A stretch of DNA of 25,206 bases. It comes from a virus. A program made the translations under genes and the position numbers. Below, piece by piece: positions 2,083-25,206 of the stretch; the stretch's first letter is position 1; each line of letters opens with the position of its first letter. The DNA lies in the IMG/VR virus record IMGVR_UViG_3300020474_000102, positions 1-25,206 of that record; one strand, 5' to 3'. Below the pieces are notes generated by a model. It was not told where the DNA came from. It saw only the letters and a program-made list of their open reading frames with translations, and did not search any database.

Positions 2083-4067
2083 TGGCAATTTCTGCTGGTA
2101 AATTGATGAATGTGTCTGCAGATAAAAAGGCACAATCAAAACCAAAAGCATCATTGGTAAGTACACCTAGTACTCAGTATTCTGTTCCATCTAGCGGTGG
2201 TGCTGATGGTGCTGGAGAAGATGGTGGTTCATCTAAAAGTGGTATATTAAAAAATCTATTAATTATTAAAGAGAAGACCATCACTATTGATGAGCATCTT
2301 AAAGAAACATATAAAAAACAAAAAAAGGATGTTCGAGATCAACGTTATGCTGAGAAGAAACAAAAAAGAAATTTTGCTGAGAATTTTTTAGAGAGGGATA
2401 ATAAGAAAAAATCAGAAGGAAAAAATCCTCTTGGTAAGGGGATGGCAACAGTTGAAAACTTCTTCATAAGTACCCTCTTGGGATTTGTTATGGTGAGGTT
2501 ATTACCATTTGTTGGTCCACTTGCTAAGTTCCTTAAATTTGCAGGAAAGGTATTTGATTTTATTATAAATTTTGCTGGTACTTTGTTTAATGCTTTTGCA
2601 GGTTTTGTCGAATTTGGATATAAAGCTGTTGATACTGTCAGAGGTGTAATTAAGAATGTTTTTGGTGAAGGAGGGGCAAAGAATTTTGATAAATTTACAA
2701 GCACCTTTACCAAATTTATGAATTTTGCCCTCATCCTTTTGATGGCAAGTTCTAATGTATTTAAAGGTCCTAAAGGTAAGGTAGGAAAGAAGATTGGTGA
2801 AAAGTTTAAAAAATCTAAACTAACAAAGAATACTAAACTTGGTAGGAAGTTACGCAAACTTAAGGCAAGAAAACTTAAGATGATGCGTAAACTTAAGTCT
2901 TCTAGGATAGGTAAGTTTGCAAAAGGTTTAAAAAAATTCTCACCTAAAAATCTTCTTAAGAGAGGTGGCAAATTCATTATGAAAGGAGGACCAGATAAAC
3001 TCCTTAAAGGTGGTGCTAAGATGCTTGGAAAGGGACTGCAATTTGGAAAAGGTTTAGCATCAAAAGGAGCAGGTAAAATTGGTGGATTTGCTGCAAAGAT
3101 ATTTGGTAAAGCTGCTAAGTTCATTGCTCCTGCAATGAAGAGTGCTAAACCATTTGTATCAAAATTCTTTGGTAAGATTCCTATTGTTGGTCCTTTAGTT
3201 GTTGGTATAGTCTCGGTAATATCAGGAGAACCTCTTGGTAAAGCATTATTCAGAACTCTTGGTGCTGCATTAGGTGGTGCATTAGGAACGTTTATACCTA
3301 TTCCTGTCTTAGGAACATTGATTGGTGAAACTATTGGTGTGTTTGTTGGTGATATGTTATATGAAGGTTTGATGGGTAAAGGTTGGGGAGCAGTAGGTAA
3401 AAAATTAATGGGTTCTTTAATGAAAATTTTTAGTGCTGGTAAAGCAGTTGCTAAATGGATTGGTGGAGGATTTACTAGATTCTTTAAGTCAGTACCTAAA
3501 ATTAAGATACCTGATATTCCTAAAGACCCTCCCAAATGGATACCTGGATGGGTTCCAATGAGAAATAAAGTTTGGAATGTATTTAAAACAGGATTAAAAG
3601 TATTAATAGGACCATTATCTTTATTGATGGGTAAAGAAGTGCCTAACCTTTTATGGTTAATGAATCCTATAGAGACTATTCCTGCAGCAATTAAATCATT
3701 TTTCCCACCTAAACCTCCAGGTGAAGAGAAAGAGACTAAGTTAGAAACTAGTGAGATAGAAGACAGTAAAGATGATAAGAAGAAGAAAAAGAAAAAGAAG
3801 GTTAATCCAAAAGATTTGAAGATTAGCAAACTTCAGGAGGAACTTAAAGCAGCTAAAAAGAAAAAGATTCTTATCTTTAAGGTTAACAGGGTTGATCTTG
3901 GTGGTGATTCTGTGGCAGAACAAACTGGTTATGAACAGACAGGAACAACTGTTATAACACAACCTATAGTTAAGGAGACTATTGTTCCATTACCTCGTGG
4001 TAAAAATATTGCACTTGCTACTCGTAGTGCAGAGACAAAAACTAATATGGAGGCAGCACTATCATGA
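2082..4067 (+). CDS. Large Lys-rich hydrophobic virion protein, possible tape measure
   Basis: This 661-residue protein starts at an ATG sharing one base with the previous stop (TAATG). Residues about 70-120 are highly charged. Residues about 124-180 are a hydrophobic run (ISTLLGFVMV and following). Residues about 230-340 are extremely Lys/Arg-rich with Gly-Lys repeats. Two further hydrophobic segments follow near 365-425 (IPIVGPLVVGIVSVISG, then a Gly/Ala/Ile-rich stretch). A Lys run sits near residue 570, before a mixed C-terminus. The alternation of basic helices and hydrophobic patches, plus the place just before the gp27-like hub, fit a tape-measure-like tail protein, but no family motif proves it. 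A long ORF on the opposite strand is a by-product of its composition. Confidence 0.6.
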   Translation: MAISAGKLMNVSADKKAQSKPKASLVSTPSTQYSVPSSGGADGAGEDGGSSKSGILKNLLIIKEKTITIDEHLKETYKKQKKDVRDQRYAEKKQKRNFAENFLERDNKKKSEGKNPLGKGMATVENFFISTLLGFVMVRLLPFVGPLAKFLKFAGKVFDFIINFAGTLFNAFAGFVEFGYKAVDTVRGVIKNVFGEGGAKNFDKFTSTFTKFMNFALILLMASSNVFKGPKGKVGKKIGEKFKKSKLTKNTKLGRKLRKLKARKLKMMRKLKSSRIGKFAKGLKKFSPKNLLKRGGKFIMKGGPDKLLKGGAKMLGKGLQFGKGLASKGAGKIGGFAAKIFGKAAKFIAPAMKSAKPFVSKFFGKIPIVGPLVVGIVSVISGEPLGKALFRTLGAALGGALGTFIPIPVLGTLIGETIGVFVGDMLYEGLMGKGWGAVGKKLMGSLMKIFSAGKAVAKWIGGGFTRFFKSVPKIKIPDIPKDPPKWIPGWVPMRNKVWNVFKTGLKVLIGPLSLLMGKEVPNLLWLMNPIETIPAAIKSFFPPKPPGEEKETKLETSEIEDSKDDKKKKKKKKVNPKDLKISKLQEELKAAKKKKILIFKVNRVDLGGDSVAEQTGYEQTGTTVITQPIVKETIVPLPRGKNIALATRSAETKTNMEAALS

Positions 4068-19690: not shown

Positions 19691-19711
19691 AGGGTCAGTA
19701 AAATTAGATTG

Positions 19712-22700
19712 ATGCATTTTTATTGTGATGGATACAAAGACAAACCCCATAGGTTTGGATTTGGTGAGACTACACGATCATATGATAAGAGACATAAAGA
19801 TGGTGATTATGGTAAAGCAAATCAAGTTATAGATGTATATGATGGTGAACGCATCCAGTTGGGATACTGGGAGGATCAGTCTACAAGATTTGATGGAGAG
19901 TTGAATATAAACCATCAAGATCATGTTGTACATGCTTGGTTGAAGAAAGATATACCTGGTGTTAAGGAGATTGGTAGAGAGACTTTTGAGGTTAATGAGG
20001 ATATTATTAGTGTTGACGTTGTAGTTCAAATGATTGAAGAGAAATGGTTCTCTGGTGCAAAAAAGAAATGGAAGACGTTTGATCCACGCCCATATCAACA
20101 GAATTTTTTAAATAAGATATCTAAAGCATGGCAATCTGGTCACGAACAGTTTTTATTATTTGCAAAGTGTCGTGCTGGTAAGTCTGTAATGACTCTTCAA
20201 CATATTGTGAATTGGGATTATAAGTTTACTGTTGTATGTTCTAGATTTGATTCACCACAGCAATCATGGAGGGATGATTCTAATACCTTCTTCCCAACTA
20301 TTAAATATATTTCAGTTAAGGATAAGAATTGGAAACAGGATTTAGAATTTTGGATGGAACGTCCAGTTAATGTTGTTTTATGGGCAACTGTACAATCGTT
20401 AATGAATCGTGAGATACCTCAACCAGATTTACTTGTTGCTGATGAGTGTCATATAGGTTCTACAGCAAAACAGTTTACTGAACTTAAAGAGAGATATAAT
20501 ACTAAGATACTCTATCTATCTGGTACTGCTTACAGCATAGTATGGGATTTTAAGGATGATAATAAGTTTGTCTATAGTTATTTTGATGAGCAGTTAGATT
20601 CTATGAAGGGTGTATTTGATGAACCTCGTCCTAGGATGTTACCAACAATAAAAGTGTATGATACACCTGCATATCGTAAGATTTTTGGTAGTGATCCTGA
20701 TTCAATTAATAATACATTCCTGATAGATCAAGAGACTGACAAGTTTTTAAATCCAGAACTTCCTCGTGACTTTGCATATGATAACTTTGATCCTAAAGGT
20801 ACACAAAGAGAGGTTGGATTGAAGCAGAAGATCTTCCAAGGAAGATATATGATGATGGCACTATCTAAAATAGCAGCATGCCATGAGTTTAAAAAAATTG
20901 TTGATTGTTGGTGGCCTACTTTAGTTGTTACTAGTGATACTAAAAATAAGGCAGATGAAATTAATAAGTTTATTGAGGAACATCCAAAAGCACTTATTCT
21001 TACTTCATCTGCAAATGTATTAGGATTTACCAATGAGAAGATTGATACTATTATCAACTGTAAGGGTGGTGAATCTCTTGAGTTCTGGAATCAATTTGCC
21101 TTCCGTGGAGGATCAGGTACACATAATTGGCATATGATTGACTTCAATGGTAAACGTGCTCTTAAATCAATGCATGCTTCATTCCAGTTAGCATGTGATA
21201 GTAATCCTGAGTTGAGAGAGTATCATGAAACTCAGTTTATGGATCTTAAAGGTTATGATAATGGTTTTAGGGAACTAACAAAGGAAGAATTTGATAGTAT
21301 TCTATCTACTGATATTGATTCTACTATGACTACAATGGAAAGTTTAGAGTCAATTTTAAATTTAGATGATGTTGAGTTTAACTACAATGTAAATACTTTT
21401 GCTACAAATAATGAATCATCAAAGGTAATAAAAAAGGCACTTGCAGGTGATGAGGATATGAATAATGAGATTGGTTATAAAGCGGAGATTGATACTGTAA
21501 AAAAGTCTAATGAAGACCCTAACAAATGGAAGAAGAAAGTAGTTAGGGCAATTTTAAAGAGTATACCTCTTTGTATTTTTTATATCTTGAAGGAAGGTAA
21601 GAATGTTAATACTATAGATGATATTTTAAAATCACCAGTCTATATTGATATTAGTGGTGATACTGAGGGTATACTCTCTGATGTTATAGATGCTAATCAC
21701 AATAGTAGAGAGAAACTTACACGTCGTATCGGTACAGAGTCTAAAACTATCATAACAAGTATGAGAGAGTCTGTAACTAAGACTTTAGATACTCTCTCAG
21801 TGTCCTCTGCCATCCAGCAACCTATTCCTTTAATTCTTCTTGATCCAATGATTAATAAATTAAAAGACACCTCACAGACTCTTATACACTCTGATCCAAG
21901 CGGTTCTCATACTGCTAGGTTATTAGAACAAAATGTTAATGTTCATGAATTGACAGTCTGGGATGATTGTGCTAACCACAGAAATAGGGTAGAATATATT
22001 GATAAGCATGTTACCCTAACTAACGAACAACCAGTGTTACGTCCAACAGCGATTCTTGCTAATCCCCCTTATCAAGATCCAAACACTAAAGCAAAGAATA
22101 ATAAGCAATGGAATAAGTTCCTATTGCAGCATGTTGACATGTTAGTGGATGGTGGGGATATGTGTGAGGTTTGTCCTGCATCATTTATTGGTACTACTGG
22201 GTTTGGTAAGAAGTTCCTTAAACTTTGCTCTACGGTTTATAATTTAAAGGAGATTGATTATACAGCAGACCAACACTTCACTCAAGGAATAAAAATTTGT
22301 AGTTGGCATTTAACTAAAGAACCATATCAGGGTAAGACTAGAGTTATTACAGATGATGGTGAGTTTGATTGGGATCTTCGTGATGGTGTACCAGCATGGG
22401 GTGATAAAGTATTAGAGACTTCTATTTTGAATAAGATTGCTACCTCTAATCATCCACGTATCCCACTGAAGATGGGTCAAGCGATTGCTAAGGAAGATTA
22501 TTGTGATGATGGTAAGTATGAAGTCCTACATTCAGGTAATATTACTTGGAAGACTAATATAAAACCTGAGACTAGTGATGTATTGAAGTTTGTTGTACCA
22601 TACTCTATGTCATATAAGAAGAGATTTATAACCAATGCACATATTGGTATGCTCAATGCATGGTGTCCTATTGTAGATGAAGAAGAAGGTGAGAGATTAT

Positions 22701-22888
22701 CTAAGATCTTTGAGCATCCTTTGATTCAGTTATATGTTGATAAGTATAAGAGAACTGGTGGTTTTGCTCCTGCTGTTAAGAATGGAGAAGTACCTGATAT
22801 TACAGACTATGATGATCTAGATACTCAGTTCAACTTTACTGAAGATGAAGTTGCCTATCTGGTGGATAACAATGTCATCAAAGAATAG
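19712..22888 (+). CDS. Single-chain nuclease-helicase-DNA methyltransferase, restriction-modification-like
   Basis: This 1058-residue protein has three regions. (1) Residues 1-110: FGFGETTRSYDKRH, then HVVHAWL and GRETFEV, spaced like GIY-YIG nucleases of the T5orf172/MUG113 type (KIG.T...R ... lH..l ... EwF); this is the least certain part. (2) Residues 125-500: an SF2 helicase with Walker A AKCRAGKS (151-158), DECH (244-247), SGTAYS (270-275) and a motif VI-like NQFAFRGGSG. (3) Residues 690-1058: an N6-adenine methyltransferase with catalytic NPPY (784-787) and the degenerate motif I SDPSGSH (727-733), then a region that may read the target sequence. The order nuclease-helicase-methyltransferase recalls type I/ISP restriction enzymes such as LlaGI, with a different nuclease. 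The start is ATG 19712; an adjacent TTG (19709) is also in frame. It overlaps the next gene by 17 bases. Confidence 0.75.
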   Translation: MHFYCDGYKDKPHRFGFGETTRSYDKRHKDGDYGKANQVIDVYDGERIQLGYWEDQSTRFDGELNINHQDHVVHAWLKKDIPGVKEIGRETFEVNEDIISVDVVVQMIEEKWFSGAKKKWKTFDPRPYQQNFLNKISKAWQSGHEQFLLFAKCRAGKSVMTLQHIVNWDYKFTVVCSRFDSPQQSWRDDSNTFFPTIKYISVKDKNWKQDLEFWMERPVNVVLWATVQSLMNREIPQPDLLVADECHIGSTAKQFTELKERYNTKILYLSGTAYSIVWDFKDDNKFVYSYFDEQLDSMKGVFDEPRPRMLPTIKVYDTPAYRKIFGSDPDSINNTFLIDQETDKFLNPELPRDFAYDNFDPKGTQREVGLKQKIFQGRYMMMALSKIAACHEFKKIVDCWWPTLVVTSDTKNKADEINKFIEEHPKALILTSSANVLGFTNEKIDTIINCKGGESLEFWNQFAFRGGSGTHNWHMIDFNGKRALKSMHASFQLACDSNPELREYHETQFMDLKGYDNGFRELTKEEFDSILSTDIDSTMTTMESLESILNLDDVEFNYNVNTFATNNESSKVIKKALAGDEDMNNEIGYKAEIDTVKKSNEDPNKWKKKVVRAILKSIPLCIFYILKEGKNVNTIDDILKSPVYIDISGDTEGILSDVIDANHNSREKLTRRIGTESKTIITSMRESVTKTLDTLSVSSAIQQPIPLILLDPMINKLKDTSQTLIHSDPSGSHTARLLEQNVNVHELTVWDDCANHRNRVEYIDKHVTLTNEQPVLRPTAILANPPYQDPNTKAKNNKQWNKFLLQHVDMLVDGGDMCEVCPASFIGTTGFGKKFLKLCSTVYNLKEIDYTADQHFTQGIKICSWHLTKEPYQGKTRVITDDGEFDWDLRDGVPAWGDKVLETSILNKIATSNHPRIPLKMGQAIAKEDYCDDGKYEVLHSGNITWKTNIKPETSDVLKFVVPYSMSYKKRFITNAHIGMLNAWCPIVDEEEGERLSKIFEHPLIQLYVDKYKRTGGFAPAVKNGEVPDITDYDDLDTQFNFTEDEVAYLVDNNVIKE

Positions 22889-23288
22889 ACACAATCAAAA
22901 GATTGGATCTGACATCACTAGGAGTGATGATAGGATTGATATTACAGGTGAAGTATTTACTCCACCATCTTTGTGTGACAAGATGATTCGTGGTATACCT
23001 AAAAAGGTTCTTAAAGATCCAACTTCTACCTTTTTAGATAATGCAGCAGGTAATGGTAACTTTGTTATTCAGTTAAAGAAGGTACTGATGAGGTATCATA
23101 GTAGAGATCATATTGTTAATAATATGTTGTATGCTGTAGAGTTTATGGAAGATAATCATAAAGAGATGTGTGAGAGATTAGGTGTGCCTGTAGATCATCC
23201 TCATTATGTTAATGCTGATGCATTGGAATATCATTATCGTTTTGATGGAACTATTGGTGACGTTACATTAGACCAGTTCTTCGAGTGA
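22872..23288 (+). CDS. SAM-binding half of an N6-adenine DNA methyltransferase
   Basis: This 138-residue protein starts at ATG 22872, inside the end of the previous gene. It has motif X (ITGEVFTPP, residues 24-32), an intact motif I (FLDNAAGNGNF, 54-64), a motif II-like acidic residue in YAVEFMEDN (E90), and motif III NADALEY. In Eco57I/type I-like methyltransferases the catalytic NPPY motif should come next, but the chain ends at DQFFE with no NPPY. Either it is a truncated remnant, or it supplies SAM binding to the preceding protein, whose motif IV is intact but motif I looks eroded. The reading frame itself is clean, and the acidic end is followed at once by the promoters of the next gene. 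Confidence 0.75.
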   Translation: MSSKNRHNQKIGSDITRSDDRIDITGEVFTPPSLCDKMIRGIPKKVLKDPTSTFLDNAAGNGNFVIQLKKVLMRYHSRDHIVNNMLYAVEFMEDNHKEMCERLGVPVDHPHYVNADALEYHYRFDGTIGDVTLDQFFE

Positions 23289-23310: not shown

Positions 23311-23316
23311 ATGCAT

Positions 23317-24498
23317 ATGGAACTTCGTACACACCAAAAAGAAGCACTTGAGGTCATGAACCACAAGCGTAAGGGAATCATTTGTGTCCCCACTGGTGGT
23401 GGTAAGACGATGATTGCCATAGAGCATGCTAAGAAGTTGTTTGACAGACCTACATTCACTGGTCATAAGACCATTGTAGTTGTTGCTCCTAGACTTCTGC
23501 TTGCTAATCAGTTGTGTTCAGAATTTACTGAGCATATTATTAACGCATGTGTTCTACATGTTCATAGTGGAGATGCTGGTAACTACCACTCTACTACTAA
23601 ACCTGATAAGATCTCTACATTTTGTTATTACTTTCGTAAGCAACATAGAATTATCTTTACTACCTATCACTCTTTGAAGAAGGTAGTTGAGTCAGGTGTC
23701 CATGTAGATGCCATTTACTTTGATGAAGCACATAACTCAGTACAGAAGAACTTTTACCCTTCTGTAAAACATTTTGCAACCAGAGTTTTTAGTGGGTGCT
23801 ATTTCTTTACTGCTACTCCTAAGTTTAGCAGGACTGATAAGAGGGTTGGAATGAATGATGGTCTCTTTGGTGGGATTATCTACAATGTACCTGCACCCAA
23901 GTTAGTTGCGTCTGGTACTATTCTACCTCCAGAGATTAAGACTGTGAGTATTCCTGTTCCTAGAGAGAAGGATGATCATCATCTTGATTGTGAGACTCTC
24001 CTAGATCAGATTGTGAATGAAGATCACATGGAGAAGGTTCTAGTTGCTGCACCTAACACTAAGGTGATGATGAGGATGCTCAGTGAGACAGAATTCTGTT
24101 CCTTCCTTAAATGGTTAGGATATGATCTATTCTGGATTACTGCAAGGCATGGTGCTTTTATTAACAATAAGAAGGTATCTCGTGATGAGTTCTTTGATAC
24201 CATGAAGGAATATGGAGAAGATCCTGATAAGAAGTTCGTTCTTCTACACTACTCAATCTTGAGTGAGGGTATCTCTGTTCCTGGTTTGACATCTCTTATT
24301 CTTCTTAGGAATATGAATGTCATTGAGATGTGTCAGTCTGTTGGTCGTGTTATTCGTCCTGCACCAGACAAGCAGTTTGGGAACATCGTTGTTCCTACTT
24401 ATAGTAACAATGTTGGTATATCAACTGCTCGTCGTTTAGAGACTGTCTATGATACCGCCTTTGTCGAAGGCGATCCTGTTATTGCTAACATGAGATGA
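23317..24498 (+). CDS. SF2 DEAH-box DNA helicase, UvsW-like
   Basis: This 393-residue protein has complete SF2 helicase motifs: Q-motif-like THQKEAL (5-11), Walker A VPTGGGKT (24-31), DEAH (136-139), FTATP (164-168), and motif VI QSVGRVIRP (340-348). T4 UvsW, a recombination and fork-remodelling helicase, is 503 residues and carries an extra N-terminal DNA-binding domain; this chain begins directly at the helicase core. It could be a UvsW-type replication/recombination helicase or the motor of a restriction-like system together with the two preceding genes. Start: ATG 23317 (MELRTHQ) is preferred; ATG 23311 adds two residues and would need the upstream promoter. The stop overlaps the next start (ATGA). 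Confidence 0.82.
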   Translation: MELRTHQKEALEVMNHKRKGIICVPTGGGKTMIAIEHAKKLFDRPTFTGHKTIVVVAPRLLLANQLCSEFTEHIINACVLHVHSGDAGNYHSTTKPDKISTFCYYFRKQHRIIFTTYHSLKKVVESGVHVDAIYFDEAHNSVQKNFYPSVKHFATRVFSGCYFFTATPKFSRTDKRVGMNDGLFGGIIYNVPAPKLVASGTILPPEIKTVSIPVPREKDDHHLDCETLLDQIVNEDHMEKVLVAAPNTKVMMRMLSETEFCSFLKWLGYDLFWITARHGAFINNKKVSRDEFFDTMKEYGEDPDKKFVLLHYSILSEGISVPGLTSLILLRNMNVIEMCQSVGRVIRPAPDKQFGNIVVPTYSNNVGISTARRLETVYDTAFVEGDPVIANMR

Positions 24499-24740
24499 CT
24501 AAACAACTTGATACAAAAGAATACATGGTAGATGGATGGGATCGTGGACCTCGTGGTTCTCACCCATTCAAACGTGGAAGTCTCCATAATAAGATAGGTA
24601 TGGTCTTAATGTGGAGTTTCTACGGAATTGTAATAGCACAATTGATACATGCCTTTATAGTTCTCCCATTTTTTCCTATCTGGGCAGTTATATCTGCTAT
24701 AATGGTATTGATGTCTATTGTTGTTATAGTTGCACCATGA
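24495..24740 (+). CDS. Small two-span membrane protein
   Basis: This 81-residue protein is coupled by ATGA at both ends. Residues 1-32 are polar with WDRGPRGSHPFKRGS. Two hydrophobic segments follow at about 34-52 (IGMVLMWSFYGIVIAQLIH) and 55-79 (LPFFPIWAVISAIM and following). It probably has both ends on the same side of the membrane, and by the positive-inside rule the Arg/Lys-rich N-terminus would be cytoplasmic. I recognise no family. Its place between a helicase and a conserved phage gene gives no clear role. Confidence 0.7.
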   Translation: MTKQLDTKEYMVDGWDRGPRGSHPFKRGSLHNKIGMVLMWSFYGIVIAQLIHAFIVLPFFPIWAVISAIMVLMSIVVIVAP

Positions 24741-25206
24741 ATATCTTTGTCACCGATCCATCTCCAGTTAAGTCTGCTCAATGCTTACCCGATAAGCATG
24801 TAGTCAAGATGCCATTAGAATCATGTCAAATGCTTTCTATTGTTGCATCTCCTGAGTGGGGTCATGACTTTGGTTCTTTGCCTAAAGTTGATGGTACACC
24901 ATATAAAACTGCTAAGGGTGCATTTCGCAATCATCCTTGCACTATTTGGGCACAAGACAACTATCGTTGGTTGATAGAGCATGCTCTTGCATTATGTGCT
25001 GAGTATACCCATCGTTACAACAAAGTTCATAGTTGTCAACATACTATAGAACATGCAGACAGTATATTTCCAAACAATGATTTCCCTAAAAGTTTCACGA
25101 GAGCAATGCCCGACGAGTTTAAATATGACTCAAGCATTGACACTTTTACTGCTTACAAGAATTACATTAGCAGCAAACCTTGGGTTGCATCTAATTATCT
25201 TCGTGA
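24737..25206 (+). CDS. Conserved phage protein, possible Pyr_excise-like family (3' end outside window)
   Basis: 156 codons are visible; the gene runs off the window. It starts at ATG 24737, overlapping the previous stop (ATGA). The opening MNIFVTDPSPVKSAQC, then DKHVVKMPLESCQML, a central NHPCTIW, and NYRWLIEHALALCAEYTHRY belong to a pattern I have seen in many T4-like cyanophages ('N-I-F-V..D ... DKH.VKM.LE..QML ... HPC..W ... NY.WL'). I recall it being linked to the pyrimidine-dimer glycosylase (Pyr_excise) family in some annotations, but I cannot confirm that. There is no membrane segment. Confidence 0.65.
   Translation, partial: MNIFVTDPSPVKSAQCLPDKHVVKMPLESCQMLSIVASPEWGHDFGSLPKVDGTPYKTAKGAFRNHPCTIWAQDNYRWLIEHALALCAEYTHRYNKVHSCQHTIEHADSIFPNNDFPKSFTRAMPDEFKYDSSIDTFTAYKNYISSKPWVASNYLR

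Follow-up and report, generated by a model that had tools for sequence, protein, structure and literature searches.

A probable N6-adenine DNA methyltransferase in two parts: overlapping cyanophage genes that appear to encode separate cofactor and catalytic halves

SAM binding and the catalytic NPPY motif are taught as parts of a single adenine-methyltransferase chain, and in the known members of the gamma class of N6-adenine methyltransferases (CamA, M.TaqI, HsdM and the Eco57I/N6_Mtase group) both motifs do indeed lie on one polypeptide. The pair of phage genes described here encodes the same motifs (X, I-III and IV), with predicted folds of the same kind, but distributes them over two proteins. 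In the type ISP enzymes LlaGI and LlaBIII a nuclease, an SF2 helicase, a gamma-type methyltransferase and a target-recognition region are combined in one long chain, and the larger of the two phage proteins resembles them in this; type ISP enzymes have an Mrr-like nuclease, whereas here the nuclease is GIY-YIG-like, the cofactor half is detached, the enzyme is phage-encoded and a frameshift signal precedes the methyltransferase part. The methyltransferases of the MADS and BREX systems (MAD2 and PglX/BrxX, respectively) are similar to both halves by profile or fold, but are single chains within larger defence systems.

To our knowledge no adenine methyltransferase divided between its cofactor and catalytic halves has been described, and a search covering part of the literature found no report of a natural one. 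Natural two-polypeptide DNA methyltransferases do exist, namely M.AquI and M.EcoHK31I (PMC3404938), and these are like the present case in needing two polypeptides; however, they are cytosine-C5 enzymes, and they are split in the variable region and motifs IX-X rather than between a cofactor and a catalytic half (PMC3404938). A rather different point of contact is the PADLOC model PDLC03375 (Type II methyltransferase, 348 aa), which starts at the NPPY strand and matches a bacterial catalytic partner of the kind described below. It is catalogued as an ordinary methyltransferase, and no record of a cofactor subunit for it was found; a half-length model being already present in PADLOC, it follows that such halves are catalogued without their partner.

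The window, by which is meant the whole stretch of DNA analysed (25,206 nucleotides), is a 25-kb virus fragment of T4-like cyanophage type. Its features of interest are collected in Table 1. For the large gene there is an alternative TTG start at 19709, which would give a product of 1059 aa. The overlap with the small gene is of a kind seen in most relatives, and among the relatives compared there was no locus in which the two genes share one frame. A reading made earlier from the sequence alone (the sequence-only reading) had drawn attention to NPPY, SDPSGSH, GEVFTPP, FLDNAAGNGNF and the 17-base overlap, and had placed all of them correctly. Further downstream, the window carries genes resembling a UvsW-type helicase (23311-24498) and a pyrimidine-dimer glycosylase (24611-25204), both typical of T4-like phages.

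Table 1 Features of the two-gene locus in window coordinates.
Feature	Position	Strand	Remarks
Large gene	19712-22888	+	1058 aa from ATG; nuclease, SF2 helicase, degenerate cofactor half, catalytic half, target-recognition region
GIY-YIG/T5orf172-like nuclease domain	19712-19996	+	residues 1-95 of large protein
SF2 helicase N-terminal part (ResIII)	20078-20530	+	residues 123-273; Pfam PF04851, E 6.8e-9
SD-like GGAG	21484-21487	+	11 bases upstream of slippery site
Slippery heptamer A_AAA_AAG	21499-21505	+	after a -1 slip, GTC is followed by stop TAA (21508-21510)
Stem 3' of slippery site	21517-21548	+	21517-21523 pairs with 21542-21548; compensatory changes among relatives
Degenerate cofactor half of large protein	21830-22021	+	residues 707-770; AlphaFold strands 723-726, 747-750, 768-770
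SDPSGSH, replacing motif I in large protein	21890-21910	+	residues 727-733
Catalytic half and target-recognition region	22043-22885	+	Eco57I and PDB profile matches
Motif IV NPPY of large protein	22061-22072	+	residues 784-787
Overlap of large and small genes	22872-22888	+	17 bases, +1 frame
Small gene	22872-23288	+	ATG start, 138 aa; detached cofactor half
Motif X GEVFTPP of small protein	22947-22967	+	sequence motif
Motif I FLDNAAGNGNF of small protein	23031-23063	+	sequence motif
Motif II MEDN (within VEFMEDN) of small protein	23145-23156	+	sequence motif

Comparison of the large protein with the type ISP architecture can be made domain by domain. At its N-terminus no match to an Mrr-like nuclease was found, and the relationship is instead to T5orf172/GIY-YIG: residues G18, R27 and E90 are invariant across 13 relatives, T5orf172 (a GIY-YIG relative) is matched by two of the 13 family members (best 3.4e-4) and MUG113 by one. 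The SF2 helicase is present in the same chain, as in type ISP enzymes, and ResIII is matched by 8/13 relatives. A complete methyltransferase in that chain is what is missing, in the sense that a motif scan of its full length found no Gly-rich motif I anywhere; Eco57I is matched by 11 of the 13 relatives (best 1.4e-13), and when the family profile is compared with the PDB, M.TaqI, HsdM and BsaXI are matched only from beta-4/NPPY onwards. Taken together, these domains suggest a restriction-modification-like system, perhaps directed against competing phages or host DNA while the phage DNA is shielded by methylation, a role that we infer from the domains.

The small protein belongs to a well-defined family, and the division of motifs goes far beyond chance. 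Along its whole length it matches phrog_4376 (E 2.4e-61), and it also matches 59 phage records at E<=1e-3 as well as 372 stretches of IMG/VR. In profile searches the family aligns with adenine methyltransferases in their N-terminal cofactor half (CamA 27-84; N6_Mtase 25-88). Motif X and the Gly-rich motif I of the proposed two-protein enzyme occur in the small protein only, just as motif IV occurs in the large protein only; a motif III-like stretch is also present in the small protein, and the chain then ends before motif IV. AlphaFold predicts for it a helix-beta1-alpha-beta2-alpha-beta3 core at pLDDT 92-98, with no beta-4, and Foldseek places this model against CamA, HsdM, BsaXI, PglX, LlaGI and M.BseCI, in each case as the cofactor half. 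The conserved tail is disordered in this model of the protein alone although Y120 and F124 within it are invariant, which suggests that it may bind a partner. A small gene 96% identical to that of the window was also found on a contig (L095) assigned to a Rhodobacteraceae MAG, probably as phage DNA in the bin.

The sequence-only reading had suggested looking for co-occurrence in cyanophages, for fused versions and for large homologues lacking a small partner. The small gene does accompany NPPY genes in cyanophages. It lies directly downstream of P-SSM2-type halves in 63 of 63 distinct sequences and adjoins window-type halves in all 26 loci that lie away from a contig edge (there being one further locus at an edge), while the 33 phage records with a large-protein homologue all encode it too, so that no large homologue without its partner was found, although these counts include many close relatives and are hence not independent events. 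Canonical motif I is missing from the NPPY partner in 120/121 distinct pairs, and in these, as in the window, the two motifs do not occur together on one polypeptide. Pairs missed by the motif pattern were read by eye; most proved to have NPPY and several lay at contig edges, while one partner had NSPY (L048) and one locus had no partner (L096). Variants of motif IV in otherwise normal partners comprise NAPY, NSPY, NYPY and NFPF (L052, L048, L003 and L009 7959-8912, respectively), the activity of which is uncertain.

Across the 121 pairs the N-half of the partner takes several forms (degenerate DPxG, LAKEP, FDxF or DAxG), and in about half of them it is absent, the protein beginning at the beta-4 strand that precedes NPPY. 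A partner that starts there cannot hold a cofactor site alone. Examples are gp36 of P-SSM2, whose sequence opens with MKFTLAIGNPPY and whose gene overlaps the small gene of that phage, gp37, and another partner beginning MNFTILSNPPY; in the L036/L199 type a partner free of any pseudo-half is 60% identical to the catalytic half of the window and has the same small gene. The invariant residues of the small protein are identical whether or not its partner has an N-half, i.e. they are not relaxed where one is present. In ACG-2014f there is a single small gene, plus a second beta-4-start half (L010 4989-5894) about 100 kb away, near which there is no small gene. Two partners, L009 525-1724 (DPAMGGGQY) and L268 2827-3990 (DPAAGGGQF), have both a Gly-rich motif I and NPPY with the small gene still adjoining, and the small subunit may therefore have a role beyond standing in for a lost motif. 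Bacterial genomes also have the two-gene arrangement: in L221-L224 an NPPY partner with a full N-half has DPFTKSG, in which Lys takes the place of the first motif I Gly, beside a neighbour of 207-243 aa with the canonical motif I FLEPACGSGNF, and these two-gene methyltransferases are the best Eco57I matches among 119 genomes.

That the two families cover complementary parts of one enzyme is seen most directly with the PADLOC mad2 profile, on which the small protein of the window spans 270-353 and a bacterial small protein 269-353, while catalytic halves begin at 355 and 357, just past this coverage. Both halves also occur in a natural single ORF, L274 1740-3050 (436 aa, TTG start), ordered as the window's genes are, i.e. 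catalytic then cofactor: the window's catalytic-half family matches its first 294 residues (hhalign E 1.5e-11), and the small family matches residues 308-436 (hhalign E 4.5e-24). A split two-gene version, 52% identical to L274 over the first half, is present on a Curtobacterium chromosome, and phrog_11371 is a second family covering both halves. No longer homologue containing NPPY was found among the small ORFs scanned; the sole two-half protein found is this permuted fusion, which supports the pairing. A direct small-then-NPPY fusion was also sought by DNA pattern, and the two matches were both due to chance.

Gene anatomy, pairing and fusion would thus fit two genes, neither of them complete, for one methyltransferase, and we consider it likely, on the strength of these comparisons, that the two proteins make up a single N6-adenine-type DNA methyltransferase, whose Rossmann fold is divided into a cofactor half and a catalytic half. 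The sequence-only reading had raised the same idea of one enzyme in trans, which now appears well supported by the conserved layout, the beta-4-start partners, the mad2 coverage and the natural fusion. The small protein would supply motif X and beta-1 to beta-3 with motifs I-III, and would bind SAM, while the C-terminal part of the large protein would supply beta-4 onwards (NPPY and later motifs) and the target-recognition region; physical association in trans would then create one active site for methylation, probably co-translationally given that the genes overlap. With the GIY-YIG-like nuclease and SF2 helicase that the large chain contributes as well, the whole would be a restriction-modification-like enzyme, whose modification activity would depend on the small subunit.

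The main caveat arises from the large protein itself. The division of motifs noted at the outset stands, in that the small protein has no NPPY and the large one no Gly-rich motif I, but the small protein also has motifs II and III and the large one is not simply missing its N-half: in an AlphaFold model of residues 701-1058 alone (mean pLDDT 85.7) the chain takes up a complete CamA-like methyltransferase fold, whose strands beta-1 to beta-3 fall in the DPSG region, and the docking site for the small half is therefore predicted to be occupied in the isolated large protein. On this model the window phage would have its cofactor half twice, in cis as a degenerate copy and in trans as a canonical one. 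This makes it necessary to consider that the large protein is itself a complete methyltransferase, binding SAM through a non-canonical motif I (DPxGxH), with the small protein as a regulatory or stabilising subunit. Such a reading would accommodate the complete fold with its motif II-like acid D751, the Foldseek alignment of the model along most of CamA, the retention of the DPxG loop over distant relatives (which is unexpected for a pure relic) and the two partner types with apparently intact motif I beside a small gene (L009 525-1724 and L268), which do argue for caution. However, the SDPSG loop is one residue short and has no GxG, so that a SAM pocket of its own is only half in evidence; profile similarity to methyltransferases begins only at beta-4, the partners 60% identical have no N-half whatever, and motif I of the small protein is retained while the partner loop varies widely or is absent. 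We therefore think it unlikely that the large protein is complete in this sense.

If the two proteins do form one enzyme, then in the window phage the small protein would have to displace the folded degenerate half or else pack beside it. Replacement of the cis half is the step that we favour, because no cis copy is present in homologues that share 60% identity in the catalytic half and because the invariant positions of the small protein are not relaxed. A larger heterodimer of two lobes, in which SAM on the small protein meets NPPY on the large one across an interface and the large protein keeps its own N-half, would leave the folded DPxG half in place and would account for partners retaining full N-halves, but it fits poorly with the beta-4-start partners and the permuted fusion, both of which call for one Rossmann sheet to be completed directly, and it seems to us quite improbable. 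As for the possibility that the small gene is a methyltransferase that has been truncated or is decaying, with no function in this phage, its lack of motif IV is what such a gene might show, but membership of a conserved family of near-constant length beside NPPY genes, with invariant residues in motifs X, I and II and with overlapping start codons, makes this scarcely credible. Family conservation, invariant motifs and adjacency led us to discard both the truncated gene and the decoy SAM-binding subunit that the sequence-only reading had entertained, the latter finding no support.

The description of the large protein as a single-chain enzyme is only part of the story. A long chain is encoded, but a dnaX-like -1 signal lies between its helicase and methyltransferase parts, and the gene is therefore likely to yield two products, a nuclease-helicase of approximately 600 aa without the methyltransferase part as well as the long form. 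As in dnaX-type programmed frameshifting, the signal consists of an upstream SD-like element, the slippery heptamer A_AAA_AAG and a downstream stem; unlike dnaX, it separates a nuclease-helicase from a methyltransferase, and either the short or the long product may be the one in frame depending on the phage. SD-like element and heptamer are found at constant spacing across 18 relatives representing both reading-frame states. In nine of these, including the window's own gene, the frame is open and a -1 slip reaches a stop one codon on, while in the nine others the methyltransferase part is reachable only via the -1 slip. In the stem, 92.8% of cells are paired and at four pairs both sides have changed; when it is slid, the share paired is 20-39%. 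Among the relatives inspected the signal is absent from L023, L052, L056 and MA01, and an Rfam search of the window gave no match.

A wider proposition, which we put forward tentatively, is that cyanophages and some bacteria have a modular adenine methyltransferase, in which a universal small SAM-binding subunit may serve catalytic/target-recognition halves that are interchangeable and of which a genome sometimes has more than one, while in the lineage of the window programmed frameshifting may set the ratio of nuclease-helicase to nuclease-helicase-methyltransferase. A conserved natural split, if real, found across hundreds of viral contigs and in model phages (P-SSM2, for instance), would account for both “hypothetical” genes and missed methyltransferases; an adenine methyltransferase already in two parts would then be at hand for engineering, and one could see how a phage might tie modification to a second subunit. 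With gp36/gp37 of P-SSM2 the idea is immediately testable.

Two minor observations may be added. Outside the cyanophages, Klebsiella phage KpV477 (L091) shows the same split: one gene (1466-2611) joins a LEM-3-like GIY-YIG domain to an NPPY half, and a separate 158-aa cofactor half (2923-3399) is encoded two genes downstream of it. Beside small/catalytic genes in L005 (5482-6084) and L007 (4436-4999) there are proteins of about 190-200 aa that gave no Pfam match and have a QxKxK-like pattern; they are possibly PD-(D/E)XK-like nucleases.
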